Shown here: positions 985 through 34,521 of the stretch, one piece after another | How the letters are laid out: every line of letters begins with the position of its first letter | Position numbering within the stretch: the first letter of the stretch is position 1 | Assembly (NCBI GenBank): GCA_903825645.1 | Contig: CAIKBL010000025.1 | Span: forward strand, 89,417 to 153,416 | Direction of reading: 5' to 3' | Source: an uncultured Pseudomonadota bacterium | Lineage (GTDB): Bacteria; Pseudomonadota; Gammaproteobacteria; Ga0077536 | DNA length: 64,000 bases | Notes under the pieces: model-generated | What the model was told of the DNA's origin: nothing | The model's input: only the letters and a program-made list of their open reading frames with translations | Databases searched by the model: none | Made by a program: the position numbers and the translations under genes

Positions 985-2403
985 TTACAGTCCGTGCTGC
1001 TTCATACGATAGCGCATGGTCATACGGGTAATGCCCAACTGGCGGGCCGCCTCCGAAATGTTATTTCCGGTGCGTCGCAGGGCCTCTTCAAGCAGCAGCT
1101 TCTCGGCCTGTTCCAACGTCATACCGTAGAGACCGTCGAGATCCTTCCCTGCAGAAGTCGCTGCACCCACCGCCGGCAACAAAAGGGCGTCTGCGCTTAG
1201 CACGTCGCCATTGGCGAGAAGGAGCGCCCTTTCGATGACATGTCTAACTTCCCGCACATTGCCCGGCCACTCATAGTGGATTAATGCCGCCCGAGCAGAA
1301 ACGTCCAGCGCGAAGTTCGAAAGCCCATACCGCCGTGCAATCTGTTGGCCAAAGTATTCGGCGAGCAGCAAAACATCCTGTAGACGTTCTCGCAGCGGTG
1401 GCAATTTTAGCGTCAACACATTCAGTCGAAAATAAAGATCTGCCCGCAACGTACCCTCCGCGACCATCCGCTCGACATCTCGGTTGGTCGCGGCGATGAA
1501 CCAGGCCCGCACCGGGCGCTCTTGGCTACTTCCTACGCGACGCAGGGAGCGTCGCTCCAGAACAGCGAGCAACTTTGCTTGCAACTCCAACGGAAGCTCG
1601 CCCACTTCATCAAGGAACACCACGCCCGTTTCTGCGGCTTCGATTAAGCCCGTACGCTCGCCCACCGCGTTGGTGAAGGCGCCTTTGGTGTGCCCAAATA
1701 GTTCGGCCTCGATCAGATCTTTCGGGAGACTCGCGCAGTCAACATGGACGAACGGTTGCGCGGCCCGGAAAGAATGCTGATGAAGGAGGCGTGCGGCGAG
1801 ATCTTTACCCGTGCCTGTCTCCCCGACAATGAGCACTGTTGGGGGGGTGTTTTCCGCTCCGATTTTCGCAATACGCGAAATTTGTGTCCGTACCGTCTGG
1901 GCCCCGGGGGACGTTCCAAGCAGGGCCACTTCCTCACCGCCGCTGGCCTCGCGGGTGCGCGAGTAGACGAGCTGCTGATTGATTTTCTGATTTAGAAGAA
2001 CTTTATTGACATTAAGAAGGAGCTCGTCCAAATCAATCGGTTTTTTGAGGTAGTCAGCTGCGCCGAGTTTCATCGCCTGTACGGCGTCCTCTATTTCTCC
2101 ATAGGCGCTGAGCGCAATAACCGGAAACTCGAATCCGAGATCGCGACGTATTCGTTGCAAAAAATCGAGCCCAGAGCCGTCAGGCAGTCGCATATCCAAC
2201 AACATCAAATCTGGCTCTCTACGCTTTATTTCTACCTCCGCAGCGGATAACGTCGCCACATTGGGGGCGTCGAAACCTGCCTTTTCAAGACGCCGACTGA
2301 CGGCTCTGGCGAATAGTGCCTCGTCTTCGACAAGCAGAATTCGCGCCGTCACGACTTCCGGCCGCTCAGGGTCTGATTCAAAAGGAGGCACAGACATGAT
2401 CAA
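985..2403 (-). CDS. Sigma-54-dependent response regulator, NtrC family
   Basis: Receiver domain (LLVEDEALFARAVSRRL...DLMLLDMRLPDGSG), AAA+ 'GETGTGKDLAARLLH', 'GAFTNAVGERTGLIEAAETGVVFLDEVGELP', Fis-type HTH at C-terminus. Confidence 0.93.
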   Translation of the reverse strand: MIMSVPPFESDPERPEVVTARILLVEDEALFARAVSRRLEKAGFDAPNVATLSAAEVEIKRREPDLMLLDMRLPDGSGLDFLQRIRRDLGFEFPVIALSAYGEIEDAVQAMKLGAADYLKKPIDLDELLLNVNKVLLNQKINQQLVYSRTREASGGEEVALLGTSPGAQTVRTQISRIAKIGAENTPPTVLIVGETGTGKDLAARLLHQHSFRAAQPFVHVDCASLPKDLIEAELFGHTKGAFTNAVGERTGLIEAAETGVVFLDEVGELPLELQAKLLAVLERRSLRRVGSSQERPVRAWFIAATNRDVERMVAEGTLRADLYFRLNVLTLKLPPLRERLQDVLLLAEYFGQQIARRYGLSNFALDVSARAALIHYEWPGNVREVRHVIERALLLANGDVLSADALLLPAVGAATSAGKDLDGLYGMTLEQAEKLLLEEALRRTGNNISEAARQLGITRMTMRYRMKQHGL

Positions 2404-3854
2404 CTTGCTTCTAAAACCGGGGCGATTAAAGTAATCAAGGTACCGCCTTTATCAGTGATCTGAAATTCCAAGTCCCAACCATGAGCCTTACATACTTTGA
2501 ATGCCACCGGAATTCCGAGTCCGGTTCCGAAACGTTTAGTGGTCGGGCCGGGCGTCAGATCAGAGGGATTCGGAATGAACGGGATGCCGCCGGCGTGATC
2601 CTGAATGGTCAGCCGAACGTGATCGACCTCGAGGATAACCGCGAGTTCAAGCAAACCTCCCGGTGAAGACGCCTCAACCGCATTGAGCAACAATCCGTAA
2701 ATAGCCTGCTCCATCAAATCGCGATCCACCGCGACCCGGACGGTCTCCATCCAAGGGCTACAAAGGGTGCTCACCTCTTTCTCTTGTAATTTCGGCTTCA
2801 GGAGATCGAGGACGGTCGCGAATATCTCGGTCAATGTCCACGGAGCCATCCGCGGCCTAAGGGGATGTAGATATGAGACAAGCGCACTGACCCAGCGTTC
2901 CAGACGGTCGACAGCGTCAACAATATCGCCTGCCACGTCAGTCGCTTCCTCGAGGCTCTCTGCATATCCAACGAGTTGTGCATTAGCTCGAATGCTCGCG
3001 AGCGGATTTCGGATGTTGTGTGCCACAACCGGCACTAATGCGCCGAGTGCGGCCTGGCGTTCGGATTCGACCAGAGCTGCTCGACTGCCGGCCAGTTCCT
3101 GAGCCATGTGGTTGATACCATGGGCCAGATCTGCGAGTTCACTAACGCCATCTGCTGGCAACCGGATATCTATTTCGCCCGCCGCAATCTGCTGAGTCCC
3201 CAGCATGATACTTTTCATCGGCCGGACGAATCCCCGCGCGAGGCGTGCGCGCGAAAATCCGATCACGCACAGGGCAATAAACACAGGAAGAGGTACGATG
3301 ACCGGCGCGTAGTGGGTCCAGCTATCGATCCGAACCCGCTGATGGTTCAACCCTTGATCGATCAAGCCTTTGAGATCCTCAAAGGCGGCATCTAGTCCGC
3401 TCACAAAAATATTATGGGGATCTGATTCAACAACACCGCTGCCCCCCAATGAGCGAGAAGTCATCTTGCCGCCATGGGTATCGTTCAATGCCGTCTGCAA
3501 TTGACCATAGGCCTCCTGCATGCTTTGGATAGCAAAGTCTTCTGCACGCGAGGCCGAGTTCTGTCGAAGGAGATTAAATTTTTCCTGTATATCAAGATAA
3601 AAATTTGTTGGTGAGCCGCCAGGCAACGTCCTCAGCCTTGACAGAGCCGCCTCCTGCATTTGTCGGAACACCAGCGTTCTAATTTCCTGCGCAGCATCTT
3701 CGAGTGTCTTCAGACGGAGGGTCTCGGTTGAGGTCTGTTGCCAAAAATAGGCCCACGTCCCGCCAATCGCGCCAGTTACGATCACCAGCATGAGCAGGGC
3801 AAGTTCGTGCCCCAGCAATAGGCGTCGTAAAGACGACGTGGGGGTGATACTCAG
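2400..3854 (-). CDS. Membrane sensor histidine kinase (HAMP + HATPase); partner of the downstream regulator
   Basis: TM helix 'LALLMLVIVTGAIGGTWAYFW', H-box 'AALGALVPVVAHNIRNPLASIRANAQLV', ATPase 'GTGLGIPVAFKVCKAHGWDLEF'. The ORF extends to 4145 but the upstream part overlaps the b561 gene out of frame, so the true start is probably non-ATG near 3854. Stop overlaps regulator start (ATGA). Confidence 0.85.
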   Translation of the reverse strand: MSITPTSSLRRLLLGHELALLMLVIVTGAIGGTWAYFWQQTSTETLRLKTLEDAAQEIRTLVFRQMQEAALSRLRTLPGGSPTNFYLDIQEKFNLLRQNSASRAEDFAIQSMQEAYGQLQTALNDTHGGKMTSRSLGGSGVVESDPHNIFVSGLDAAFEDLKGLIDQGLNHQRVRIDSWTHYAPVIVPLPVFIALCVIGFSRARLARGFVRPMKSIMLGTQQIAAGEIDIRLPADGVSELADLAHGINHMAQELAGSRAALVESERQAALGALVPVVAHNIRNPLASIRANAQLVGYAESLEEATDVAGDIVDAVDRLERWVSALVSYLHPLRPRMAPWTLTEIFATVLDLLKPKLQEKEVSTLCSPWMETVRVAVDRDLMEQAIYGLLLNAVEASSPGGLLELAVILEVDHVRLTIQDHAGGIPFIPNPSDLTPGPTTKRFGTGLGIPVAFKVCKAHGWDLEFQITDKGGTLITLIAPVLEAS

Positions 3855-4384
3855 TTCCAGGGCAGCATGCGCCGAAGAAATCGATCCCGAGGATGGAAGG
3901 CATGACTGAGCACCCCTGCCAGATGTGTTGCCAGTAGACCCAGTAGCGCTAGCGAACCGATGACATGTAACCGCACGAAGAACTCGCTCAGCGGAAGATT
4001 CAGGGTTCCCCACAGCGGTAATGGCAGGCCGAAAAAACTGGTGCCGTGGCCATTGAACTCTGACGAGAGATATCCCGTCAGTGGTTGCGTGAGCAAGAGC
4101 AAATAGAAAAGCGCGTGCACCGCGCGAGCCAGCGCGGCCTGCCAAGCTGTCACGCTAAGCGGCAATAGCGGGGGGGAATGGCCCAATCTCCAGCCTAATC
4201 GCCATAAACTCAGTATCAAGACGCTCGCACCAAGCGACTTATGGAGCGCAAAATTTTGACCCCGCAACGGGCCTTTGGGCAGGTCTACCATGTACCAACC
4301 CAACAGAAAGAGGGTTATCAAAAGACTGGCCGTAACCCAATGCAGGAGCATGGCAGTTTTTGTATAAGCTTGCGGGTTGCCCAT
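3851..4384 (-). CDS. Cytochrome b561 family protein
   Basis: 'YTKTAMLLHWVTASLLITLFLLGWYMVDLP...LHKSLGASVLILSLWRLGWRL...LHVIGSLALLGLLATHLAG' with conserved heme-ligand histidines. Confidence 0.9.
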   Translation of the reverse strand: MGNPQAYTKTAMLLHWVTASLLITLFLLGWYMVDLPKGPLRGQNFALHKSLGASVLILSLWRLGWRLGHSPPLLPLSVTAWQAALARAVHALFYLLLLTQPLTGYLSSEFNGHGTSFFGLPLPLWGTLNLPLSEFFVRLHVIGSLALLGLLATHLAGVLSHAFHPRDRFLRRMLPWN

Positions 4385-6276: not shown

Positions 6277-8211
6277 GTGTTCAGTGTTGATATTGATACG
6301 GGCGGTACCATGACGGACACAATGGTCAGCGGAGGTGGCGAACCTTTGCTCATCAAAATGGAGTCAACACCGCACGATATGACCGTATCATTTATGCAGA
6401 GCTTGGAAGCTGCTGCCTCCGCCTTGGACTTCAAGTCGCTCGGCGATTTTCTAGACGAAGTTCAGTTGATTCGATGGTCTTCGACCATCACCTCGAATGT
6501 GCTCGCCCAACGCAGCGGCCCGAAACTCGGGTTGGTCGTCAGCAGCGGGCATGAATCGGATCTGTACGCGAAGGAGGCGCATGAAGTGGCGACCGTCGTG
6601 CCCTCGCTGGTGCGCCCCGAACACATTGTGGGCCTGCCAGAAAACGCTGAGCGTGGCGAGATTATCGCCAAACTTAAGCAACTAATCGACCAAGGGATCC
6701 GCCGTATCAACGTGTCGCTTCGAGGCGCTTTCCCGGACGGTCAGCGCGAGCAGGAAATTCTCGGAATCATCGCCGAACAATTTCCCGATCATTTTCTAGG
6801 ATCGGTGCCGGCCGTTGCCGGCAGTGAAATGCTGCTGCGCCCAGATGATATGTCCCGCACGTTCTTCGCACTGATTAATTCCTATGTACACAATAGTCTC
6901 GCGAATTCATTGTTCAAGGCGGAAGATGTACTCAAGATTGAACATCGATGGAAAGGAGATATTCTTGTCGGACACTTGAGCGGCGGTGTCGCCCGTATCG
7001 GGAAAACAAAGGCAGTGGACACGATAGAGTCCGGGCCATTGTTCGGGACACACGCATCGGCTCATGTGGCGCAACAACGAGAATTACCGCACGTGCTAGC
7101 CATTGATATAGGCGGCACCACGGGCAAGGCGAGTGTGGTGCGAGATGGGCGTGTCACCATGCAATCCGAAGGCGCTTTCTTCGGTATCCCGGTACGCATG
7201 CCCATGGCGGTCCTGCGCTCAAATGCGCTGGGCGGGGGTAGCGTCGCGCGGGTAAAGGATGGCGTCATAACCCTGGGCCCTGACAGCATGGGCGCCGCCC
7301 CCGGTCCCGCCTGCTACGGACTAGGCGGGACACAAGCCACGTTAACCGACGCCTTGGTTGTGCTCGGTCTGGTGTCGCCAACAGCATTTCTTAATGGCCG
7401 TCGCGTGCTGAAGACGGAGATTGCCGAACACGCCATTCAACGCCATGTCGCCGCCGTACTCGGCGGCTCGCCCGCCGAGGCCGCGGCGGATATCTACGGG
7501 CGTGCGGTTGCCATGATGGCGGATCTGGCCCGGGAGACCTTAGGTGTCGCCGACAACCTCGAACAGAGCCCCCCCGTTCTATTCGCCTATGGTGGAAACG
7601 GCCCCCTCTTCGCCACCGCCATCGCAGATATTCTCGAAATAGCCGAAGTCAGATTCTTTGCGCTGGGCACTGTGTTTAGCGCGTATGGCTCGGCTATCGC
7701 TGATGTCCTCCACGTTTATGAACGTGCATTGGTAACTCCTCACAAGCAAGCCGAAATAGAGAGCGGAGGGATAGGGTTACGTGTTCAGGCCCAACGAGAT
7801 TTACGTGGAGAGGGTTTCCCGCCCGACGAGGCTAACTACTTGTGGGAAACGGAGGACGGCACCGGACGTCGACGCACCGTCCAGGGAGCACTTGATACCG
7901 CCGAGCTTGCTGCTGACTTCGATGCTCAGTTGCTGCGCCTCACGGCCCGTTATTCCATCTCGAAACAAAATATTCCAGCGCAGACGGCCGCAACCGGCGC
8001 ACTATCTCATGCGAATGCCCGTCCTTCTGTCTTGGGTAAAAACGGCCATTTGCCTGTATACGATCACGCCGCGCTCATCGGTCGTACGCTTGTGGGTCCA
8101 CTCGTCGTTGACGGAGGAACCTTTACCTGGTACGTCGGCAGCGGCTGGCAAATCGCAGTCGATTTATGGGGCGATGCCGCGCTCCACCGAACATCCGGGA
8201 AAGCGAAATAA
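6277..8211 (+). CDS. Hydantoinase/oxoprolinase N-domain (HyuA-like) subunit; ApcA-like subunit of acetophenone carboxylase-type enzyme
   Basis: 644 aa, GTG start; 'FSVDIDTGGTMTDTMV', 'AIDIGGTTGKASVV', 'LGGGSVARVKDG', 'GAAPGPACYGLGG'; first gene of apcABCDE-like order. Confidence 0.8.
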   Translation: MFSVDIDTGGTMTDTMVSGGGEPLLIKMESTPHDMTVSFMQSLEAAASALDFKSLGDFLDEVQLIRWSSTITSNVLAQRSGPKLGLVVSSGHESDLYAKEAHEVATVVPSLVRPEHIVGLPENAERGEIIAKLKQLIDQGIRRINVSLRGAFPDGQREQEILGIIAEQFPDHFLGSVPAVAGSEMLLRPDDMSRTFFALINSYVHNSLANSLFKAEDVLKIEHRWKGDILVGHLSGGVARIGKTKAVDTIESGPLFGTHASAHVAQQRELPHVLAIDIGGTTGKASVVRDGRVTMQSEGAFFGIPVRMPMAVLRSNALGGGSVARVKDGVITLGPDSMGAAPGPACYGLGGTQATLTDALVVLGLVSPTAFLNGRRVLKTEIAEHAIQRHVAAVLGGSPAEAAADIYGRAVAMMADLARETLGVADNLEQSPPVLFAYGGNGPLFATAIADILEIAEVRFFALGTVFSAYGSAIADVLHVYERALVTPHKQAEIESGGIGLRVQAQRDLRGEGFPPDEANYLWETEDGTGRRRTVQGALDTAELAADFDAQLLRLTARYSISKQNIPAQTAATGALSHANARPSVLGKNGHLPVYDHAALIGRTLVGPLVVDGGTFTWYVGSGWQIAVDLWGDAALHRTSGKAK

Positions 8212-8214
8212 GTC

Positions 8215-8610
8215 ATGTCCACACAAAATAAAATTGGGGTGCTCAACATCGCTGAGAACCTTCAACTCGATTTGGATACCGATACCTGGGTCTGCGGGCG
8301 CTGCAGCTGCGTCATCGGTAGCGCACACGAAAATGTCAAACATAGCCTCTTGGTGGGGGAGCGGGATCCAACTGAAGTTCATCCACCCTTGATCATGGGC
8401 CAACCGTACTCTTTCGCGCCGAATCCGGAATGGGTCCGCATTCTGGAATTTTATTGTCCGAGCTGCGGGGTCCAGATAGAAACTGAATATCTCCCCCCGG
8501 GACATCCGATCACCTACACCACGGAGATCGACCTGGCGGCCCTTAAAAACCGCCTAAACCAAGGCGAGATGGTCATCGAAAACGGACATCTGAAGGTGGT
8601 AACCACATGA
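8215..8610 (+). CDS. Acetone carboxylase gamma-like / ApcB-like small zinc-ribbon subunit
   Basis: 131 aa with C-x2-C pairs ('VCGRC', 'YCPSC') and 'GVQIETEYLPPGHP'; lies between two HyuA genes. Confidence 0.7.
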   Translation: MSTQNKIGVLNIAENLQLDLDTDTWVCGRCSCVIGSAHENVKHSLLVGERDPTEVHPPLIMGQPYSFAPNPEWVRILEFYCPSCGVQIETEYLPPGHPITYTTEIDLAALKNRLNQGEMVIENGHLKVVTT

Positions 8611-10745
8611 GAAGCGTCGATATCGATGTCGGCGGAACGTTCACCGATCTCGTCCTCACCTACGACGATCGGCGGGTCATCGCGAAAGCACCGACGACCC
8701 CCTATGATCTTTCCGTATGTTTCATGAACGTTCTGGAAGATGGCGCCGAGCAGCTTGGTTACAGCACAGAAGAGCTCCTGCCGGACATTGAGGTAGTTCG
8801 TTATTCGACCACCGTAGCAATGAACCGGCTCATTGAGCGCAAGGGTCCAAGACTCGGCCTCATGGCGACCGAAGGTCACGAAGATGCCATTCTGATTGGG
8901 CGAGGGGCCCAATGGGTCGACGGACTGAGAATTGGCGAGCGGCGCAATCTTGCCGCTCAACACAAGCCGACCCCGTTGATTTCCAGACGTATGATCGTAG
9001 GGCTTAAGGAGCGTGTGGATTCGACCGGCTGTATTCTGCGAGAACTCGTAGAGGACGATGTTCGGGAAAAACTTCGCTATCTTATTGACAACGGCGCACG
9101 TGCAATCGCGGTATCACTGTTATGGTCTTTCGCAAATCCTGCACACGAACGTCGGGTTCGGGAAATAATCCGTGAAGAATACAAGGGTTATCATGTCGGT
9201 TATCTCCCCGTCGTCCTCTCCCATGAGGTCGTTGGCAAAGTAGGGGAATACGAGAGAAGCATGACCGCAATCCTTGATGCCTATCTCCAACGCTCCATCA
9301 AACTCGAGATGGAGGCGACGTGGGACCAGCTGCGGGAACGCGGCTACACCGGCAGCTTTCTCCTCACGCACAACACCGGTGGTAGTGCGGAAATGTTTAA
9401 GACGACGGCGTCCCGAACTTATAACGGAGGACCTATCGCAGGTCTCATGGGCTCCTATCATATCGGCCGCACGCTCGGTTACAAAAATGTCATTGCGAGT
9501 GACGTCGGAGGCACCAGCTTTGACGTCGGAATGGTCGTTGATGCGGGCGTCCGGAGCTACGAATTTCGCCCCATCATTGACCGATGGATGGTCGGAATCA
9601 CCATGCTGCAAACCACCACCATGGGCGCGGGCGGTGGTTCAATTGCGCGTTACAACACGCTCCTGAACCGTCTGGAAGTCGGCCCACATAGTGCCGGGGC
9701 GATGCCCGGGCCCGCCTGTTACGACCTCGGCGGCACTGAGCCGACCGTCACGGATGCTGACGTAGTTCTGGGCTACATCTCGCCGGATACCTATTTCGGC
9801 GGACGCATGCCACTCAGCCGGGATAAAGCCTATGCGGCGATTCGCCAGAAAGTAGCTGAGCCGCTCGGCATTTCGGTCGACGAGGCGGCAGCGATGATTC
9901 GGAACATCGTTGAGGAAAACATGGCTTCGGCCATTAAACGCGAAGTTCATTTGCGGGGCTACTATCCAGAAGACTTCGTGCTCTTTGCCTTCGGCGGCGG
10001 TGGTCCGACGCACGTCGCCGGCTATCGGGCCGAAATTCCGGTCGCCGTCATTTTCCCTCAAGCGCCGGTCTTTTGTGCCCTAGGCAGTTCGGTCATGGAT
10101 ATCATGCATGTTTACGAAGTATCGCGACGCATGACGTTTATGGAGGCCATCACGGGAAAATTCTCTACTGACTACGAGAAATTTAACGGTGCGGTTCAGA
10201 ACTTGATCGAGCAGGCTAAAATAGACCTCGCGGCGGAAGGCCTTGCTGTCGACACTGCTATTTTCCAGGTCGAGCTGGACATGCTCTATGGTGGCCAAGT
10301 CCACGTAAAAAGAGTTTCTTCGCCTCACCTGCGCATCGAAAGCGAAGTTCAAATGCGAGAAATTTATGAGGCCTTCGAAAAAGAGTTCTCCGAAGCGTTC
10401 AGTCCACACGTCGTTAATAAACCGGGTGGCGTGCATCTCGAGAATATTATTCTAAAAGCGACGGTGCCAACCGAAAAACTGGAACTACCGATGAGACCAC
10501 TCGGATCAGCCGACGCCAGTAGTGCATTAACCGGCTTCCGCGAAGCATATTGGCCCGAACTGAAAGTCCGCCAGGACACCTCCGTCTATCGTTTTGAGGA
10601 TATGCAACCCGGGCATCACATCGTGGGCCCGGTCATCGTTGACGCGGAGTTCACCACGTTAATCGTACCGCCGGGTCAATTTTTTCATATTGATGCACGC
10701 GGCCTCGGCATTCTGGAGTATTCGAAGAAAGGATCGCGAAAGTGA
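8607..10745 (+). CDS. Hydantoinase/oxoprolinase HyuA-like subunit; ApcC-like
   Basis: 712 aa; 'RSVDIDVGGTFTDLVLTYDDRRVIAKAPTTPYDLS', 'IASDVGGTSFDVGMV', 'MGAGGGSIARY', 'GAMPGPACYDLGGTEPTVTDADVVLGY'; overlaps upstream stop (ATGA). Confidence 0.85.
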   Translation: MRSVDIDVGGTFTDLVLTYDDRRVIAKAPTTPYDLSVCFMNVLEDGAEQLGYSTEELLPDIEVVRYSTTVAMNRLIERKGPRLGLMATEGHEDAILIGRGAQWVDGLRIGERRNLAAQHKPTPLISRRMIVGLKERVDSTGCILRELVEDDVREKLRYLIDNGARAIAVSLLWSFANPAHERRVREIIREEYKGYHVGYLPVVLSHEVVGKVGEYERSMTAILDAYLQRSIKLEMEATWDQLRERGYTGSFLLTHNTGGSAEMFKTTASRTYNGGPIAGLMGSYHIGRTLGYKNVIASDVGGTSFDVGMVVDAGVRSYEFRPIIDRWMVGITMLQTTTMGAGGGSIARYNTLLNRLEVGPHSAGAMPGPACYDLGGTEPTVTDADVVLGYISPDTYFGGRMPLSRDKAYAAIRQKVAEPLGISVDEAAAMIRNIVEENMASAIKREVHLRGYYPEDFVLFAFGGGGPTHVAGYRAEIPVAVIFPQAPVFCALGSSVMDIMHVYEVSRRMTFMEAITGKFSTDYEKFNGAVQNLIEQAKIDLAAEGLAVDTAIFQVELDMLYGGQVHVKRVSSPHLRIESEVQMREIYEAFEKEFSEAFSPHVVNKPGGVHLENIILKATVPTEKLELPMRPLGSADASSALTGFREAYWPELKVRQDTSVYRFEDMQPGHHIVGPVIVDAEFTTLIVPPGQFFHIDARGLGILEYSKKGSRK

Positions 10746-12793
10746 GTTACCCCACCGTAGAAGAAAAACTTGCGTCGCTAAAAATCACACCGGCGACGCC
10801 GCACGAACTACGATGCATGGAAAAAGTATCGCGCGGTTCTTATGAAATTGCCGTTCAGCGTACGGCTGATATCCTAGACGAGGGCTACGAAATATTTATG
10901 CGCTCTTCGCGCAGTTCTATGGGCGTGGCTGGTGATTCTATAGTCGCCATGTTCAGTGCACACGGCGATCTCGTGAATGCGTCTGCCGGCACTTACCTTC
11001 ACGCCATCATCCCGCCTATTGTCATCAAGTATATTTTGAAAAAATACCGGGAAAATCCCGGTATAAACGATGGCGATATTTTCTACACGAATGATGCCCT
11101 TTACGGAGGAATCCATAACCCCGATCAAGTCGCGATCATGCCAGTTTTCCATGCTGGGGAGCTTGTCGCTTGGACCGCGGCCTTGTCCCACACGACCGAA
11201 ACGGGCGCTTGCGAGCCCGGCGGGATGCCGTTATCTGCTACTTCACGTTTTGAAGAAGGGATGAATCTTCCTCCGATGAAAATCGGTCAAAATTTCCGCA
11301 TCAATAATGACATTATCGAGTTATTTTCAGCGTTCGGGATTCGGGCGGAGGCGAATGTCACGGTTGATCTGAAAGCACGCTGTACAACGGCGGATCGGGT
11401 CCGTACTCGTTTGGTTGAGATGTGTGAGCGGGAGGGCGCTGATTTTGTGACGGGCTTGTTTCGACGGATGCTGATAGAAGCCGAAACAGGCGCACGTAAG
11501 CGTCTCATGACATGGCCGGACGGTGTTTATCGTTGTGTGACATTCAGTGATGCGGCGGGGCTAAAACGTGGCCTTATTCGCAACTGCTTTCTAACCATGA
11601 CTAAACGAGCCGATCACCTCACGATAGATTTCACGGGGACAAGTCCCGAAAACCTGTCCAGCTACAACGCACACCCACAAGCCGTGATTGGGCATCTGGC
11701 TAATTACATTTATGAGTATGTGTTCCATGACCTGCCAATTTCGAGTGCAACGTTTGCACCGCTTGACTTTATATTCCCAGAAGCAAGTTGCTTGTCCCCA
11801 ACGCCTCGCGCAGCTACCAGCAACGCGGTAATGATTTGCACGGGTGCTATGAGCGCCATTGCGAACTGCATTTCGCGGGCCCGTTTCCCGAGTGAAGATT
11901 GGCACCAAACCACCGCTTCCATGGGTAACGGCGGTAATGCGCCGGTCATAGCCGGCACTTCCCAATGGCAAATGCCGTTCGCCGACATGATCGCCTATAC
12001 GATCAATACTGAAGGCCAGGGTGCTCGTTGTACGCATGACGGGATGGATGCCTACGGATTCCCGTGGTGCGCTTTTGGTCGCGCGCCTGATGTTGAGAGT
12101 ATGGAGAACGAATTCCCGATGCTGGTGCCTTTTAGCCAGCACTGGCCGGACTCCGGCGGACACGGAAAATTTCGTGGCGGGTGCGGCACCACTCAGTTTT
12201 GGTCAGTCCATCATGTGCCCATGCTGTTTTTCCTCTCGATCGCTGACAACAGTTCATTGCAAACGCCGCAGCCGCTGTTCGGCGGCTACGCGCCACCGAC
12301 AGTTCCCGGTATCACGATAAAAGACACGAAGGTTACCGAGCTGCTTGCCCGACTTGACGACGGTACACTTGATTTTCATGCGCTTATCCGCGGTGACTTT
12401 GGCGAGGTGCAAACGGAGCCTAATGGGCGCTCTGCCAGACCGGTAGAAGCTGATAAGACAATCTCCGTCCTAATGTCTACTGGCGGCGCAGGCTATGGCG
12501 ATCCACTCGATCGAGATCCCGCTCTCGTCCAAAAAGATTTGCTAGCCGGTTTGTGCTCAGCATGGAGCGCAAGAGAGATCTATCAGGTTGTTTGGGATCC
12601 CGTTCGCGAACGGGTGGATGTGCCCGCGACTGAATCGGCGCGGGAGGCGACCCGGAAAAGAAGACTCGCCAGAGGCAAGCCTTATGTGGAGTTTGAGAAA
12701 GAATGGTCCAAGCGAAAACCGCCCGAAGAGATCATGAATCTCTATGGCTCTTGGCCCGATGCAAAACCACTTGCGCCAGTATTCCGACCCTAG
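10742..12793 (+). CDS. Hydantoinase B / oxoprolinase (HyuB-like) subunit; ApcD-like
   Basis: 683 aa; 'ADILDEGYEIFMRSSRSSMGVAGDSIVAMFSAHGDLV', 'GDIFYTNDALYGGIHNPDQVAIMPVFHAGELVAWTAALSH'; GTG start overlapping upstream TGA. Confidence 0.85.
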   Translation: MSYPTVEEKLASLKITPATPHELRCMEKVSRGSYEIAVQRTADILDEGYEIFMRSSRSSMGVAGDSIVAMFSAHGDLVNASAGTYLHAIIPPIVIKYILKKYRENPGINDGDIFYTNDALYGGIHNPDQVAIMPVFHAGELVAWTAALSHTTETGACEPGGMPLSATSRFEEGMNLPPMKIGQNFRINNDIIELFSAFGIRAEANVTVDLKARCTTADRVRTRLVEMCEREGADFVTGLFRRMLIEAETGARKRLMTWPDGVYRCVTFSDAAGLKRGLIRNCFLTMTKRADHLTIDFTGTSPENLSSYNAHPQAVIGHLANYIYEYVFHDLPISSATFAPLDFIFPEASCLSPTPRAATSNAVMICTGAMSAIANCISRARFPSEDWHQTTASMGNGGNAPVIAGTSQWQMPFADMIAYTINTEGQGARCTHDGMDAYGFPWCAFGRAPDVESMENEFPMLVPFSQHWPDSGGHGKFRGGCGTTQFWSVHHVPMLFFLSIADNSSLQTPQPLFGGYAPPTVPGITIKDTKVTELLARLDDGTLDFHALIRGDFGEVQTEPNGRSARPVEADKTISVLMSTGGAGYGDPLDRDPALVQKDLLAGLCSAWSAREIYQVVWDPVRERVDVPATESAREATRKRRLARGKPYVEFEKEWSKRKPPEEIMNLYGSWPDAKPLAPVFRP

Positions 12794-12812
12794 TGCTGAA
12801 TGGATCTGACAG

Positions 12813-13538
12813 ATGATTAATCGCCCACCCCGGCGGCGGCTCCAGGCCCTTGCGCAAGGACGAGGTGCACAGGAGCGCCTTGCCGCACTACTGGCCTTTG
12901 ATGCGGCCGCGCAGATTTCGGCGCGCCCTCTAGAGGAATTTCATCGAGATCCAACCCAGCTAGCAAATGGGCTCAGCGAATTGCAGCGCGCGCTAGGTAG
13001 CGACGTCATCTGCTGCGCTTTGGCTGATAACTTCGAAAAGGATTCGGTCGGGAGTTCAACTTTTTCCCTAGAGGCGATACTCGTACCAGGGACACGGGGC
13101 GCAGCGAGTCTCGAGGCCTGCCGACGCCTGAGAGCGACCGCAGGAGAATCATGCGTGTTACTGGCGGGTCTCACCGGACCGGCCACGCTAGCGGCGCAAT
13201 TCGCCACAGACCTTTCCACCGCCGGCGAGGTGTTCACCTCACTCGCGAAAGCGTTCTGTGCTGCCGGCGCCGATTTAATTCTCGTGTTCGATGCCGCGCT
13301 ACCGACGGATCTCGGTCAATGGGCTGACACGCTCAAAACTGCCGGTAATATTGCGCGTTTTCACCGCGCACTCGCCATGCAGTGGGACTCTGCGGCACCA
13401 CTGCCACAACCCGCAAAAATTCCTCTGTTTGCACCATCAAAAGGCCTAGCCGGGATCACCGTCACGACCGAAATCGCTGCTCCAGATGTCAGTCTCGAAC
13501 ATCTAAAAGCCTGGATAACCGCAGTAAGCGCCGAATAG
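12813..13538 (+). CDS. Small cluster protein in the ApcE position; no recognisable catalytic motif
   Basis: 241 aa ORF sandwiched tightly between the HyuB-like and CoA-ligase genes on the same strand. Confidence 0.6.
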   Translation: MINRPPRRRLQALAQGRGAQERLAALLAFDAAAQISARPLEEFHRDPTQLANGLSELQRALGSDVICCALADNFEKDSVGSSTFSLEAILVPGTRGAASLEACRRLRATAGESCVLLAGLTGPATLAAQFATDLSTAGEVFTSLAKAFCAAGADLILVFDAALPTDLGQWADTLKTAGNIARFHRALAMQWDSAAPLPQPAKIPLFAPSKGLAGITVTTEIAAPDVSLEHLKAWITAVSAE

Positions 13539-13575
13539 GTACTGTTTTTCCCGTACATTGGAGAGTGAGGCTTTC

Positions 13576-14898
13576 ATGACCGGTTCCTATTGGAATGCCG
13601 CTGCAGAAACTGCAACGCCTGAAGTTGTTCGCGAACTTCATTTTCGCAAGCTCAAAGCGCAGATTGCGTATCTCTGGAACTTCTCGCCCTTTTACCGCGA
13701 AAAGCTGGAACACGCGGATCTAGTGCCTAATAGGCTTCGCTCACTCGACGATCTTTCGCTTTTTCCGTTTACCGAAAAACATGAATTGCGCGAGTCACAG
13801 CTTGCCGAGCCCCCCTTGGGCAGACACCGCGCATGCCCCGCTGACGCCGTGCGGCGAATTTATTCCACCAGCGGTACAACCGGACGACCGACCTACATAG
13901 GCCTTACGGCACAGGATATTAACGGGTGGAAGGAAGCCGCCCTACGTGCTTTCTGGACGGCCGGACTCAGGCCTGGCGCCATTGTGCCGATAGTCGTGTC
14001 TCCGTTTGTCGTGGCCGCCTCCTATGCTGACGCATTTGAGACCATCGGCACCTGTATTCCCGTTGGGGTCAATATGACTGACCGACTAATCGATGCTTTT
14101 CGCTTTGCAAAAGCGGATAGTCTTTTGTGTACTTCTTCCTATCCACTCCATTTTGCAGCGGCCCTCATTCAACGCGGAATCGATCCCCGTACCCTTGGTC
14201 TGAAACGAATTTTCGCTGGCGGAGAGCCTGGCGCGTCAATCCCCTCGGTCCGTAAACAGATAGAAGATTGCTTTGATTGTCGGATCCTTGAGGTATCGGG
14301 CAATGGTGATTACAGCGGAATGGCTTGGGCAGAATGTGAGCATCGACGCGGAATGCACTTTGTGGCACAGGGATTAATCCATCCGGAACTAATCGATCCG
14401 GAAAGTGGCAACTCGATTGATATCGAAGCAGGCGCGCAAGGTGAACTGGTCTGTACCAGCCTTGACCGGGAATGTATTCCTTTACTGCGTTTTCGGACCC
14501 GCGATCATGTCATCGTGACACAGACCGACTGCGCTTGCGGCAGAACAGGATTTGGCATCCGGATCATCGGCAGAACGGACGACATGCTCATTATACGTGG
14601 CGTCAACGTCTATCCGTCCGCCGTACGGGATGTCATCGCGAGCTTTTCTCCAGAAACCAATGGCATGATGGAAATCCAGTTATCGGCCGCCCCGCCGCAA
14701 GGCTGGGAGCCTCCGCTACAAATCAAGGTGGAAACGACGGGACAAAACGACGTGGAAAATGTCCGGTTGAAGGCAGCCATTGAGACATCCCTCAGGGATA
14801 AATTGATTTTTCGTGCGGAAATAACTCTGGTACCGGTCGGCACGCTCCCACGATATGAGTACAAGGCAAAATTGGTGAAAAAGTGCTACGAGGAATAG
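13576..14898 (+). CDS. PaaK-type AMP-forming acyl/aryl-CoA ligase (possible beta-ketoacid-CoA ligase)
   Basis: 'IYSTSGTTGRPTYIGLT', 'FRTRDHVIVTQTDCACGRTGFGIRIIGRTDDMLIIRGVNVYPSAV' are phenylacetate-CoA ligase family signatures. Confidence 0.88.
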   Translation: MTGSYWNAAAETATPEVVRELHFRKLKAQIAYLWNFSPFYREKLEHADLVPNRLRSLDDLSLFPFTEKHELRESQLAEPPLGRHRACPADAVRRIYSTSGTTGRPTYIGLTAQDINGWKEAALRAFWTAGLRPGAIVPIVVSPFVVAASYADAFETIGTCIPVGVNMTDRLIDAFRFAKADSLLCTSSYPLHFAAALIQRGIDPRTLGLKRIFAGGEPGASIPSVRKQIEDCFDCRILEVSGNGDYSGMAWAECEHRRGMHFVAQGLIHPELIDPESGNSIDIEAGAQGELVCTSLDRECIPLLRFRTRDHVIVTQTDCACGRTGFGIRIIGRTDDMLIIRGVNVYPSAVRDVIASFSPETNGMMEIQLSAAPPQGWEPPLQIKVETTGQNDVENVRLKAAIETSLRDKLIFRAEITLVPVGTLPRYEYKAKLVKKCYEE

Positions 14899-25601: not shown

Positions 25602-26405
25602 TCAATCAAACCTGAACATATCCATGCGGAGTATGCGATAGCTCACACTGGTGTGAAGACGTTGTGCGCGCCAACCCTGGCCAGCGGCGCCCATCGCCAC
25701 AAACATCGGCAATAGATGTTCAGCCGTCGGATGGTTGTGCTGCGCAAATGGGGCTTTTTCCCGATATTCCAGCAAAGTGGTTTCGTCGCCCTCCTGTATT
25801 TTTTCGCCCATCCAATCCGCAAATGCATCAACCCAGTCCGGCGCGGCTGTATTCCCCGCAGGAGGAGCCACCTGACCCAGGTTATGCGTAAACGCACCTG
25901 ATCCAATCACGAGTACACGGCGACCACGAAAGGCGGTCAGCGCGCGCCCTAGTTCAAGATGATACCGAGGATCGGCTCGCCCATCGATGCTGAGGGCGAT
26001 AACCGGCACATCTGCCTGGGGATACATCAACATCAAAGGAACCCAGGTCCCGTGATCGAATCCCCACTGATCATCGAGTTGAGCAGGGAGCCCGACATTA
26101 GAGAGGGCGCGCACCAACTTGTCCGCCAGATCGGGCGCCCCTGGGGCCGGGTAACTCATCTGATGGAGACTCGGATCGAAGCCGTTAAAGTCATGAATGG
26201 TTCTGGGATTTGGCGCCGAGGTAACACGCGCGACAGGCCCTTCGTCGTAGTGTGCAGAAGCTACTACGATGGCGTGTGGACGAGATAAGCTCGCACCCAG
26301 ATCGAGCAAACACTGCCGCGCGGGCAAAGGCGTCAGCACTAAATTCGGGGCGCCATGCGATAAGAACAAAGTAGGGAAGTTTCCCGAAAATTCCATAATG
26401 TTCAC
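25602..26405 (-). CDS. LigB/DODA-type extradiol dioxygenase (4,5-DOPA dioxygenase family, YgiD-like)
   Basis: 'LFLSHGAPNLVL', 'AIVVASAHYDEGP', 'WGFDHGTWVPLMLMYPQADVPVIALSID', 'VLVIGSGAFTHNL'. Confidence 0.9.
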   Translation of the reverse strand: MNIMEFSGNFPTLFLSHGAPNLVLTPLPARQCLLDLGASLSRPHAIVVASAHYDEGPVARVTSAPNPRTIHDFNGFDPSLHQMSYPAPGAPDLADKLVRALSNVGLPAQLDDQWGFDHGTWVPLMLMYPQADVPVIALSIDGRADPRYHLELGRALTAFRGRRVLVIGSGAFTHNLGQVAPPAGNTAAPDWVDAFADWMGEKIQEGDETTLLEYREKAPFAQHNHPTAEHLLPMFVAMGAAGQGWRAQRLHTSVSYRILRMDMFRFD

Positions 26406-26583
26406 TCAGCTCTCGTGCGTTTTCTGTTTGAAATTGAGGTTACAGCAACAGCTCGATCGTCGTGTTTCTCAAAGTATTCGGTGGCGAAAGTAGCCTTTAA
26501 AACGGTCCAGAAATCTCTCTGTCTCTTCCGCACCTATTCCATCAGGCTCCTAAAGATTCATCACCCGCAGGAGTCGTCGCCCT

Positions 26584-27750
26584 CTAAGCCGGGTACATCT
26601 TGATGAGATTTTTAGCGATGACAATACGCTGAATTTCGTTGGTCCCCTCTCCTATACACATCAGGGGTGCGTCTCGATAATAACGCTCGATGTCAAATTC
26701 GGCTGAATAGCCGTACCCGCCATGGATGCGCATAGCTTCTTGCGAGCAATACAGTGCAGTTTCAGAAGCAAATAATTTTGCCATGCCGGCCTCCAGATCA
26801 CAGCGCTCTCCGCGTACGTATTTTTCCGCTGCGCTGTTTGTCAGCAGCCTTGCGGCCTCCACGCGCGTCGCCATCTCACCCAATTTCAGCGCGATCGCTT
26901 GATGTTCACAGATGGGTTTTCCGAAGGTTTTCCGTTGTTGTGAATATCGAATCGAATCTTTCAATGCGGCATTGGCAAGCCCCACGCCACGAGCAGCCAC
27001 GTTGATGCGTCCAAGCTCTAGTCCGCCCACCGCGTGCTGGAAACCCTGACCTTCAACGCCCCCCAAAATACGTTCCGCGGGAATACGGAAATCGTTAAAA
27101 CTGAGACCAACGCTCTCCACTGAACGGTAGCCTAGCTTCTTGAGTTTGCGATCTACGGTGAATCCATCTCCCCTTTCGGCGAGGAACATGGTCATTCCTT
27201 TGTGTGCAGGTTTTGCCGACAGATCGGTCTTCGTAAGCACCGCATAAAGACTCCCGTACATTCCATTGGTGATCCACATCTTGGAGCCGTTCAACACGTA
27301 GCCATCCCCGTCTCTTCGCGCATGCGTCTTGATGCCTTGCAGATCAGTGCCGGCATCCGGCTCCGTCAAACACAGTGCACCTCGGAGTTCACCCATGGCT
27401 AGCTTGGGTAAAAAATATTCCTTTTGCGCCAACGTGCCAAAGCGAAAAATCAAGGTACCAAGCATGAGGTGAGAATTCACAATACCGCCAATACTCATGA
27501 ACACCTCGGCGATGGCCGTCACGATCTTGACGTACGTGGTCGCGGGCAGTCCCATTCCGCCATATTCTGCCGGAATAGTCAGTCCAAAGAGCCCCAACTC
27601 TTTCATCTGCTCGACAAGGTCAAAAGGATATTCGTCTGCTTGTTCGTATTTCTTCGTCACCGGCCGGACTTCTTTTTCCAGCCAAGCAGTCACCGAATCC
27701 AAGATCTGTTTTTCGTCTTCCTGGCTGAAAGAAGCGTCTGCTATTGTCAT
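26584..27750 (-). CDS. Acyl-CoA dehydrogenase
   Basis: 'LCLTEPDAGTDLQGIKTHARRDGDGYVLNGSKMWITNG', 'MRIHGGYGYSAEFDIERYYRDAPLMCIGEGTNEIQRIVIAKNL'. Confidence 0.93.
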   Translation of the reverse strand: MTIADASFSQEDEKQILDSVTAWLEKEVRPVTKKYEQADEYPFDLVEQMKELGLFGLTIPAEYGGMGLPATTYVKIVTAIAEVFMSIGGIVNSHLMLGTLIFRFGTLAQKEYFLPKLAMGELRGALCLTEPDAGTDLQGIKTHARRDGDGYVLNGSKMWITNGMYGSLYAVLTKTDLSAKPAHKGMTMFLAERGDGFTVDRKLKKLGYRSVESVGLSFNDFRIPAERILGGVEGQGFQHAVGGLELGRINVAARGVGLANAALKDSIRYSQQRKTFGKPICEHQAIALKLGEMATRVEAARLLTNSAAEKYVRGERCDLEAGMAKLFASETALYCSQEAMRIHGGYGYSAEFDIERYYRDAPLMCIGEGTNEIQRIVIAKNLIKMYPA

Positions 27751-27773
27751 GTCTATTTCCCTTTCTTTGAGAA

Positions 27774-28538
27774 TCAAATTGCCGTAAGTCCACCGTCGAC
27801 GGGAATGACCGTGCCCGTCATATACGAGGCTTCTTCCGAGGCCAGAAACACAGCCACATTGACGATTTCTATCGGCTCAGCCAACCTGTTCAGCAGATGC
27901 ATAGCAGCCATTTGTCGAAGCGCCGCTTCTTTGTCATCGACATCGCGCAAATAACGTCTGGGCATTTCCGTATTGACGACTCCTGGGCAGATTGCATTGA
28001 CGCGGATCCCCATCCCCGCGAGATCAGTCGCCATAGAACGGGCCAACTGAGCCAAACCACCCTTCGAGGCACCATAAGCTGCCATTGTCGGAAACCCAAC
28101 AATTCCGCCGACTGACGAATTGTGGACAATGGAGCCTCCCCCACGTTTCACCATCTCTCGGGCTGCCAACTGACTCAGCAGAAAAGGGGCTCTGAGGTTC
28201 ACTGCGAGCAGGCTATCAAGCTCTTCAACTGTCGTATCAAGGAACGGCTTACCAACCATTAAGCCGTGATTATTAAAGAGAATATCAAGTCCGCCAAACT
28301 GCTTAACCGTTTGTTTTACGAGTTTTTTTAGCAGGTTATCGCTGCACATGTCACCACCGACATATCCTAGCCTGTCGGGATGTGTAACACGCAGCTTTGC
28401 CACTGCCCCATGAGGTCGGCTAGCAAGGTCGCTGGCCATGACGCACGCCCCTTCTTCCAGAAACCGTCTGACCGCAACCTGCCCCTGCCCGCCTAAAGCA
28501 CCCGTGATGATCGCAATTTTATTTTTTAACCGTCGCAC
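27774..28538 (-). CDS. SDR-family oxidoreductase
   Basis: 'IAIITGALGGQGQVAVRRF', 'NNHG', 'YGASKGGLAQLARSMATDLAGMGIRVNAICPGVVNTEM', 'TGTVIPVDGGLTAI'. Confidence 0.9.
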   Translation of the reverse strand: MRRLKNKIAIITGALGGQGQVAVRRFLEEGACVMASDLASRPHGAVAKLRVTHPDRLGYVGGDMCSDNLLKKLVKQTVKQFGGLDILFNNHGLMVGKPFLDTTVEELDSLLAVNLRAPFLLSQLAAREMVKRGGGSIVHNSSVGGIVGFPTMAAYGASKGGLAQLARSMATDLAGMGIRVNAICPGVVNTEMPRRYLRDVDDKEAALRQMAAMHLLNRLAEPIEIVNVAVFLASEEASYMTGTVIPVDGGLTAI

Positions 28539-28557
28539 TTCCGCTCTCCTTTAATTT

Positions 28558-29697
28558 TCAGATCCGCAAGCCCGCCTGTTTCATTAGCGGAAGGACGCGT
28601 TCACCAAAATACTTAAGTTCTTCGTAGTAATCGAGCCAGGACAGAATAAATCCTTCGATACCCAAGTCCGCCAATTGAAGCATCATTTCGACAACCTGTT
28701 CAGGTGTCCCCACGAGCGGGAAACCACCCCAGCCGGCGATAAAGCGCTCACCAAATTGCTTGATCTGCTCATTAAACGAATTACTCTCAATCCCGAGTAA
28801 GTTCATGATGTTGTGGGTAGCCTCCCAATCACCCTCGTCGATTATGCGACGATAGAGGGCCCAAGCTTCAGCTTCGGTGTCCCGACAGCACACCAATCCA
28901 TAACTCATCACTCCCACGCGTCTACCGTATTTGGCCGCTCGCTGATGGATGTCGGAGACCAATCCACTCGCTTGCTCTTGGGTTGCAATCGTGACGAAAT
29001 TGAAATCAACATGCCGGGCCGAAAATTCACGTCCTTCTTCTGAATTTCCTGCATTGATAACAACCGGATGCGGACGTTGGAGAGGTTTTGGCAGGAGGAA
29101 TCCGCCCCGGATCTGGAAATACTCGCCCGCGAAATCAAAATCCTGCTTGGTCCACGCTAGCTTGATACAGTTCAGCCACTCTGCTGCCATGTCGTAACGA
29201 CGTTCATGCGGTAACTGTTGTATCCCAAACATTTCAATTTCTGGTCGGAACCATCCGCACACTACGTTGAGCCCAAATCGACCGTTTGAAATATGATCAA
29301 TTGTGGCGCCTTGTTTCGCGGCAAAGAGCGGATGAACTGTCGGCACATGTGAAGTCGCGTAGACCATTATTTTTTGTGTATTACACGCTAAGGCAGTCGC
29401 CCAGGTATATACCTCCATGTTGTTGGCATTAAATTGAGTCGTGCCACCGAAATGCTTCCATCGGCCGACCGGGACGAGTAATTCAAAGCCCAGATCATCA
29501 GCCAGTTTCGCGATTTTTACATTATGTTGATACGTTGGTTCGAACGTCGTCTCAGCGTGGGTAATGGTGCAGCCGTTACTGCAATTCATGCCAAATATGC
29601 CCAGCTTGAGTCGATTTCGATTAAACACCGGGACGTGTTCAGCACGCCATGCGTGGACATCATCAGCGTGTTGGAAGAAGTCGGGTTGAACATCCAT
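28558..29697 (-). CDS. LLM-class flavin-dependent monooxygenase
   Basis: 'LKLGIFGMNCSNGCTITHAE', 'AKLADDLGFELLVPVGRWKHFGG', 'HISNGRFGLNVVCGW', 'LVGTPEQVVEMMLQLADLGIEGFILSWLDY'. Confidence 0.9.
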   Translation of the reverse strand: MDVQPDFFQHADDVHAWRAEHVPVFNRNRLKLGIFGMNCSNGCTITHAETTFEPTYQHNVKIAKLADDLGFELLVPVGRWKHFGGTTQFNANNMEVYTWATALACNTQKIMVYATSHVPTVHPLFAAKQGATIDHISNGRFGLNVVCGWFRPEIEMFGIQQLPHERRYDMAAEWLNCIKLAWTKQDFDFAGEYFQIRGGFLLPKPLQRPHPVVINAGNSEEGREFSARHVDFNFVTIATQEQASGLVSDIHQRAAKYGRRVGVMSYGLVCCRDTEAEAWALYRRIIDEGDWEATHNIMNLLGIESNSFNEQIKQFGERFIAGWGGFPLVGTPEQVVEMMLQLADLGIEGFILSWLDYYEELKYFGERVLPLMKQAGLRI

Positions 29698-30353
29698 TTT
29701 GAATCTGCCCCTAGACCGATCAAGGCCGAGAATCGAGGTTTTTCTCACTGATTTTTTTGGCAGTCCATTCCTCGTCTGGAGAGGCTGAGATGCCCGAAAA
29801 GGTCACCTCCTTGTTATGACGGTGCAGAACGACTAGCCGGAGAGAAAATAGTCTAAAGGCGCTCTTCATAGGTTTGACCCCATTACATAGGGGAACATGT
29901 GGATATCAAAGAAAAAGCGCGTGAGCAAGGTGATAGGACCTTATTGATAGTACTAGCCGCTTATGACTATACCCCGCCGCATAAGCGCATTTCATTCCAC
30001 TCGCGCTGAGATCCACTGACCGGCACCGGCGACTTATTCCCTATGGCGCCAGTTATGGAAGAGGTCCTCATGACTTGCTGTTGAAAACTCTTCGAGCTGC
30101 ACCCCCAAGGCTATACGCGCGATCAGGCAGAACGCCCGCGAGGTGAGACGGTGGGGATCCACCGAGTCTTCTACGGGATCTTTTTATAAGACGAGCCATC
30201 TCTCCCGGTGAGGGCTCGTCAGGCACCACTGACACGAAATATCCATGCCAGTTCTATTTCGAACACTAGGGGAGCCATGCTACCGACGGCTATGGACCAT
30301 CCCCACATCTCGTTTCGACACGGCATCCCCACACCCGTGTTCGACGGCTGAGA

Positions 30354-31541
30354 TCAGCAAGCTTCGAACAATCCGGCAGCGCCCATACCCTTTCCGATAC
30401 ACATCGACACAATTCCGAACTTTTTACGTCTCCGTCTTAACTCGCGGATCACGACGCCGGTCATGCGAGATCCCGTCATCCCGAAGGGATGGCCAATGGC
30501 GATCGAGCCACCGTTAACATTATAAATCTCGTTATCGATCCCGAGCTCGTCACGGCAATATAGACATTGCGAAGCAAACGCCTCATTCAACTCAATGAGA
30601 TCGATATCGGAAAGCGACAACCCTTTATATTTTAGAAGTTTAGGGATCGCAAACACCGGACCAATGCCCATTTCGTCCGGCTCACATCCCGCCACCACAA
30701 ACCCTCGGAAATAGGCGAGCGGCGTCAAGCCGAGTTGTTGCGCGCGACGTTCAGACATCAACAAGGTCATTGACGCGCCGTCAGACAACTGGGAAGCATT
30801 ACCCGCCGTCACACTCCCACCCTCTTCGAACGCAGGGGCTAGCATAGATAAGCCTTCGAAAGTCGTGTCTATCCGGTTGCACTCGTCTCTATCCACCGTA
30901 CCCTCAACGATCGCGGTTTCCTTCGTGTCCTTATTCACCACTTTTCGCCAATTGACAGTCATTGGCGCGATTTCTTCTCCAATGTAGCCCGCTGCGCAGG
31001 CTGCCGCATAGCGCTGCTGACTCTGCAGCGCGTAACGATCTTGTGCCTCGCGTGAGACCTTGTAACGACGTGCAACTACTTCAGCTGTATTTCCCATAGC
31101 CATAAACATAGCTGGCTTATCTTTCAATAAGCGGGCGTTCTCGTCGAATTTCGCGGGCGTACCTCTTTCGAGGCCAGTAATGGACTCCACGCCGCCGGCA
31201 ATCGCGACTTCCGCGCAACCGCTTGCAATCTGTGTCGCCGCAATCGCAATAGCATTCAACCCGGAAGAGCAGGCACGGCTGATGGTTGCAGCGGCGACAC
31301 TAATCGGGAGTCTGGAAAGCGCCACGCCGTAACGCGCGACATTTGCCGCCTGCTCCCCTACCTGACGGGCCGCGCCGACTATCACATCATCGACCTCGGC
31401 AGGGTCCAAGGCCGGGGAACGGTCGAGCAAAGAATTGATGCAGTGCGCAATGAGATCATCTGCGCGCGTGAGGTTAAAAGTGCCCCGATGGGATTTAGCC
31501 AACCCTGTGCGAAGACTGTCGACGATAACAACCTGACTCAT
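30354..31541 (-). CDS. Thiolase (acetyl-CoA C-acyltransferase)
   Basis: 'SRACSSGLNAIAIAATQIASGCAEVAIAGGVES', 'LNEAFASQCLYC', 'NVNGGSIAIGHPFGMTGSRM', 'GIVSMCIGKGMGAAGLFE'. Confidence 0.93.
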   Translation of the reverse strand: MSQVVIVDSLRTGLAKSHRGTFNLTRADDLIAHCINSLLDRSPALDPAEVDDVIVGAARQVGEQAANVARYGVALSRLPISVAAATISRACSSGLNAIAIAATQIASGCAEVAIAGGVESITGLERGTPAKFDENARLLKDKPAMFMAMGNTAEVVARRYKVSREAQDRYALQSQQRYAAACAAGYIGEEIAPMTVNWRKVVNKDTKETAIVEGTVDRDECNRIDTTFEGLSMLAPAFEEGGSVTAGNASQLSDGASMTLLMSERRAQQLGLTPLAYFRGFVVAGCEPDEMGIGPVFAIPKLLKYKGLSLSDIDLIELNEAFASQCLYCRDELGIDNEIYNVNGGSIAIGHPFGMTGSRMTGVVIRELRRRRKKFGIVSMCIGKGMGAAGLFEAC

Positions 31542-31847
31542 AGTACTTCCTTAAGCTATCAGTGGAGATTTAAGCGCGGGGCATATTCTGGCACGTCTTT
31601 GCAGGCGCCGCCCCCACGCGCGGCAACCTAAAACTTCCGCCGTTCAGCTGGAACAGGGATTCGGAAGCTGACCCGGTCCTTCCACAACGATCAAAGGTTA
31701 TCCAGCCGGACTGGTAGGCGTTTCCGGCCTCATTTGCTACGATTCACGCCTATCCTGCGTGGACCCTCCCAATGGGAACGTTCCGCGCCATATATCAATC
31801 CTTTGCCGGTATACGCTAGGTCCGGTACAACCTGTTGATGAAAGATT

Positions 31848-33008: not shown

Positions 33009-33025
33009 TCAGGCAGGATGTTCCA

Positions 33026-34519: not shown

Positions 34520-34521
34520 AT

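Follow-up and report, generated by a model that had tools for sequence, protein, structure and literature searches.

A complete acetophenone carboxylase-type operon of a sister clade, with an adjoining CoA ligase gene, in a gammaproteobacterial genome

The closest described system is ApcABCDE-Bal of Aromatoleum aromaticum (core, PDB 5L9W; ApcE, PDB 9fou), in which five subunits are encoded in the same order as in the locus described here and are likewise followed by a CoA-ligase gene. As of 2017, characterisation had been limited to a single enzyme of the Apc branch, and the authors of that work caution against functional assignments for distant members (PMC5214803). The same structural paper names gene order, clade, subunit lengths and motifs as the tests for membership in the family (PMC5214803).

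Two related groups have to be kept apart from it. The acetone carboxylases AcxABC (5M45, 5SVB) share the alpha/beta/gamma core and are also biotin-independent, but they have only three subunits in a different gene order. The oxoprolinases, hydantoinases and caprolactamases (6YRA, 7HK5, CapAB) share the HyuA/HyuB-type alpha and beta subunits, but they consist of these two subunits and hydrolyse amides.

Operon structure and subunit identity

The window, i.e., the whole stretch of 64,000 nucleotides that was analysed (G000:C25:89417-153416), belongs to a genome of 4.1 Mb in 90 contigs with a completeness of 99.5%. An earlier note on this DNA had described six collinear genes with ATGA- and GTGA-type overlaps and a likeness to the Apc layout. 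The six ORFs at 6277-14898 were indeed found to be intact and collinear on the plus strand, with overlaps at 8607-8610 (ATGA) and 10742-10745 (GTGA) and remaining intergenic gaps of 3, 19, and 19 nt. The first five genes have ApcA, ApcB, ApcC, ApcD, and ApcE, in gene order, as their best NCBIfam matches. Every protein of the operon has a strong Pfam family match except ApcE, which is strong in NCBIfam, and since each protein thus matches a family, the operon is not a chance arrangement. Comparison with relatives indicates purifying selection (dN/dS 0.04-0.15 where it could be measured and, in cases of saturated dS, pN/pS 0.10-0.45), and the order apcABCDE was also found in loci of several phyla.

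The apcA-like gene (6277..8211, +) starts with GTG and encodes the alpha-prime subunit of 644 amino acids, a presumed bicarbonate kinase (NCBIfam ApcA 1.5e-200; 564 bits to the alpha chain of 5L9W). It is followed by the apcB-like gene (8215..8610, +) for the 131-aa gamma subunit, which the earlier note had called a zinc ribbon and which is the small subunit of acetone/acetophenone carboxylases (PF08882, 1.8e-29; ApcB 6e-46; 5L9W chain C 3e-37). All four cysteines of the gamma zinc site are kept in it, with Cys27, Cys30, Cys81, and Cys84 standing for Cys22, Cys25, Cys75, and Cys78. The apcC-like gene (8607..10745, +) encodes the alpha subunit of 712 amino acids, a presumed ketone kinase, which aligns with the A. 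aromaticum subunit (5L9W) without gaps over 703 residues (1073 bits). The beta subunit of 683 amino acids is encoded by the apcD-like gene (10742..12793, +), which starts with GTG, and scores 950 bits to 5L9W against 168 to acetone carboxylase and 122 to oxoprolinase. The next gene (12813..13538, +) codes for a protein of 241 amino acids which had been left unnamed before and which is the epsilon subunit ApcE (ApcE model 5.6e-29), so that the suspected likeness to Apc is borne out as far as sequence can tell by a complete ApcABCDE set. The sixth gene (13558..14898, +), starting with TTG, encodes a PaaK-type acyl-CoA ligase of 446 amino acids with a TSGTTGRP motif, presumably a beta-keto acid:CoA ligase.

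None of the five subunits reaches the respective NCBIfam equivalog cut-off (668 of 1250 bits for ApcA, 155 of 250 for ApcB, 1166 of 1500 for ApcC, 1040 of 1500 for ApcD and 101 of 450 for ApcE), so that neither strict orthology nor the name acetophenone carboxylase proper is assigned. It is extremely improbable that a three-subunit acetone carboxylase has been misread as Apc, even though the gamma domain of acetone carboxylases is present in the gamma subunit: ApcA and ApcE are additional to such an enzyme, the gene order is that of apc and not of acx, the subunit lengths are those of Apc, and ApcC scores only about 348 bits to acetone carboxylase as compared to its match to Apc.

Phylogeny and active sites of the kinase subunits

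The features of the Apc family that can be read from the sequence were all found, namely the order apcABCDE, the lengths of 644/131/712/683 residues and the motifs. The ATP motifs DxGGTxTD, DVGGT/DIGGT, and GxxPGP, shared with A. aromaticum Apc, are present in both kinase subunits ApcA and ApcC, whereas the ER[IV]DSxG fingerprint (KERVDSTG), likewise shared, is present in ApcC and absent from ApcA.

A tree of 52 alpha-type subunits was calculated, for which the reference sequences were taken from PDB alignments. In this tree the ApcA-type and ApcC-type rows are split with a support of 100/99, and the ApcA and ApcC of the window cluster with the ApcA and ApcC of 5L9W, respectively, again at 100/99. 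The two subunits take mirror-image places in the two halves, together with those of other Gammaproteobacteria and beside Actinobacteria, and in each half, with a support of 100/99, this group is sister to one formed by 5L9W and two further genomes. The acetone carboxylase 5M45, the oxoprolinase 6YRA and the N-methylhydantoinase 7HK5 lie outside the Apc clades, although on long branches. The phylogenetic check that had been proposed for both HyuA-like subunits thus places them with Apc and not with oxoprolinase or N-methylhydantoinase. This tree excludes an ATP-dependent amidohydrolase (hydantoinase, oxoprolinase or lactamase) with acquired extra subunits, a reading to which the HyuA/HyuB-type domains and additional matches to caprolactamase models would point. 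As ApcC also scores 1073 bits to Apc compared to 339 to oxoprolinase, and as hydantoinases are devoid of gamma, alpha-prime, and epsilon subunits (PMC5214803), this reading is rated as highly improbable.

In A. aromaticum, the polar residues E248, D274, and K281 of ApcA have been assigned to bicarbonate, and the ketone pocket of ApcC is formed by L81, F281, N282, P285, I333, Q344, and T345 (PMC5214803). The window and all ApcA sequences of the clade that contains 5L9W keep the E-D-K residues, but these were not found in the paralogues, the reference hydantoinases or acetone carboxylase. The ApcC pocket of the window reads M, Y, N, P, I, Q, T, with the two conservative changes L81M and F281Y (MYNPIQT versus LFNPIQT), while acetone carboxylase has LIVPMAM. 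The closest A. aromaticum-type relatives, G013 and G147, have pockets identical to that of A. aromaticum. With the E-D-K residues kept and the pocket nearly identical, the layout of two kinases is kept and the ketone pocket is slightly changed. To read F281Y as a sign of a hydroxylated ring is speculative.

Taken from its sequence, the operon very likely codes for an Apc-type ketone carboxylase that is ATP-dependent and needs no biotin, together with a ligase that activates the product, and by analogy the substrate is probably an aryl methyl ketone. Following the A. aromaticum enzyme, ApcC would phosphorylate the enol of the aryl methyl ketone, probably a substituted, acetophenone-like one, ApcA would turn bicarbonate into carboxyphosphate by phosphorylation, and ApcB and ApcD would complete the core, onto which ApcE may dock and help to bring both activated substrates together. 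It is possible, but rather doubtful, that an Apc-type carboxylase of this kind acts on an aliphatic, cyclic or terpenoid ketone instead and yields a branched or alicyclic beta-keto acid. The pocket changes L81M and F281Y, a ligase that is about as near to 2-hydroxyisobutyryl-CoA synthetase as to PaaK, and a general acyl-CoA catabolic region that is also present in the window are in favor of such a substrate, whereas the other five pocket residues (N282, P285, I333, Q344, T345) are the same as in A. aromaticum ApcC, and the paralogous clusters with their other pockets seem to be better candidates for other ketones.

CoA ligase, downstream pathway, and regulation

The ligase shares the fold family and motifs of PaaK (4R1L, 2Y4O), but reaches only 213 of the 646 bits of the PaaK equivalog cut-off, about a third (PaaK models 3e-69). 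Its PDB matches comprise phenylacetate-CoA ligase (4R1L, 2.6e-56) and 2-hydroxyisobutyryl-CoA synthetase (6HDW, 1.5e-53), and its comparison with Bal is one of gene position. The other PaaK-like ligase of the genome is only 32-35% identical to it. The gene is located after apcE in Gammaproteobacteria. Several Actinobacteria, Acidobacteria, and Paradesulfitobacterium carry the gene for a related ligase upstream of apcA, and in other loci an AMP-binding ligase (PF00501) lies near the apc cluster. Within the host's family, the ligase is present in 10 of 10 genomes with an apcC of the window clade and in 1 of 14 without, counts which are not independent due to the relatedness of the genomes. The ligase tree resolves no single clade linked to apc, and the ligases of loci L028 and L044 are placed elsewhere, which is why the ligase seems to be exchangeable.

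In the proposed pathway, the PaaK-type ligase would convert the beta-keto acid to its CoA thioester, and cleavage by a thiolase from another locus of the genome would then give acetyl-CoA and an aroyl-CoA. The earlier note had also proposed thiolysis as the last step. This step is supported by relatives, in which thiolase genes were found beside the apc cluster in eight loci (L020, L021, L026, L031, L032, L044, L072, and L097), whereas in the window neither a thiolase gene nor a ketone-forming gene adjoins the operon; ethylbenzene-oxidation genes, a difference to A. aromaticum, were not seen adjoining it either. A homologue with 53% identity to the cluster-linked thiolase is encoded on contig C17 of the genome. 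The aroyl-CoA may enter the aerobic Box pathway: the genome contains BoxB twice and lacks benzoyl-CoA reductase C, which would allow aerobic degradation of such a product. The Box pathway was also considered as evidence for the substrate and was found to be uninformative, since BoxB occurs in 30 of 36 genomes of the family, with or without apc, and therefore says little about the substrate.

Elsewhere in the window, a catabolic region at 25602-35631 encodes a LigB dioxygenase, two acyl-CoA dehydrogenases, a luciferase-like monooxygenase, a thiolase, an aldehyde dehydrogenase and a family III CoA-transferase. A Mutator-type transposase gene (36978-37892, -) encodes 304 amino acids and is perhaps truncated, as the ends of the Pfam profile are missing.

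For the apc genes of A. aromaticum, control by a two-component system was predicted (PMC4729919). In the window, genes for a sensor kinase and a sigma-54 response regulator are located at 985-4145 (-), on the opposite strand and two genes away from the operon, and this system may or may not control it. A sigma-54 promoter was searched for upstream of apcA and none was found; in the window as a whole, the pattern is not commoner than expected by chance (25 found, 31 expected). In several relatives a divergent PucR/GAF regulator gene adjoins apcA. Some relatives carry a PQQ alcohol dehydrogenase in the apc area, by which a secondary alcohol could be converted to the ketone.

The epsilon subunit and related clusters

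In 2017, ApcE was called 'elusive', with close relatives only in Nevskia and Rubrobacter (PMC5214803). An alignment of 43 genes following apcD was built, and its profile matches the ApcE structure 9fou (released 2025-12-24) at 1e-45, followed by a methylcobalamin:CoM methyltransferase at 3e-11. Pfam URO-D is matched by 30 of the 43 members (best 3e-22). The structure predicted for the ApcE of the window (AF2; pLDDT 95.9, pTM 0.93) has a TM-score of 0.83 to 9fou, and MtaA- and URO-D-type barrels come next, mostly at 0.55-0.68. Judged by the profile match and this model, the 241-aa protein is a true ApcE with a predicted URO-D-type fold. None of the papers in the library searched links Apc with URO-D; the fold is not claimed as new here, as it will have been evident to the depositors of 9fou.

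In all 49 loci on contigs that extend beyond apcD, the next gene encodes ApcE, while the other 11 loci end before this point. No ApcE above the equivalog cut-off was found among 387 searched genomes of the class. The length of the protein is about 203-356 aa: most Proteobacteria and Actinobacteria have forms of 203-252 aa, and the forms of Acidobacteria and others reach about 295-356 aa; A. aromaticum ApcE has about 293 aa compared to 241 aa in the window. A role as a working decarboxylase was considered and rejected. The Asp of CYFDPFLE, which we take to be the URO-D catalytic residue, is apparently found only in the long acidobacterial forms, while the window has CCALADNFE at this position, in an alignment read by eye.

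Two more apcABCD clusters are located on contigs C9 and C3 of the window's genome, with ApcC 38-40% identical. The genes after apcD in these divergent clusters (L009:7084-7923 and L010:6799-7674, both on the minus strand; 279 and 291 aa) matched nothing in Pfam or NCBIfam, and a sequence comparison of their family (A2) with the PDB gave no match. In profile-profile comparison with the ApcE family, 269 columns were aligned with 97% probability (E 1.2e-10), compared to at most 0.44% (E 0.14) for the reversed and 40 column-shuffled controls. These genes are therefore read as putative remote epsilon subunits. A further cluster on C44 (L011:7-4954, +) has the acx-like order alpha-beta-gamma, and its alpha subunit best matches the caprolactamase and ApcC models. 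G013 and G147 contain a further cluster type with an extra gene between apcB and apcC; that of G147 matches ApcE and URO-D, and G013 has an ApcE match at the same place.

A gene for a CobW-type metal chaperone follows apcE in the clusters of the A. aromaticum type in G013 and G147 (L093:4872-8183 and L094:7446-9632, both on the minus strand), accompanied in G013 by a thiolase gene. Two members of the family, G013 and G020, show an unusual expansion of this enzyme superfamily, with about 30 HyuA-type matches per genome. In G005 (C9:40602-46736), apcC and the ligase gene occur in a copy with stops and frame breaks, due to decay or to an assembly error.

A broader reading is put forward tentatively and may well prove wrong: an epsilon subunit with the URO-D fold would be obligatory in every ketone carboxylase with ApcA, including very divergent clusters which the models do not recognise, and would form the chamber in which activated CO2 meets the enol phosphate, and the clade of the window and the C9 and C3 clusters would be carboxylases for different ketones.

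The operon of the window is a complete Apc system of a sister clade, which widens a known enzyme type and does not constitute a new kind. Of the new findings, the broad distribution of the epsilon subunit, which extends to remote homologues, is the most useful. As ApcE was present in all usable loci across several phyla, its role and key residues are open to comparative testing, and cultured hosts of apc genes (Pseudonocardia, Microbacterium, Modestobacter, and Paradesulfitobacterium) are available for experiments on CO2-fixing ketone chemistry.
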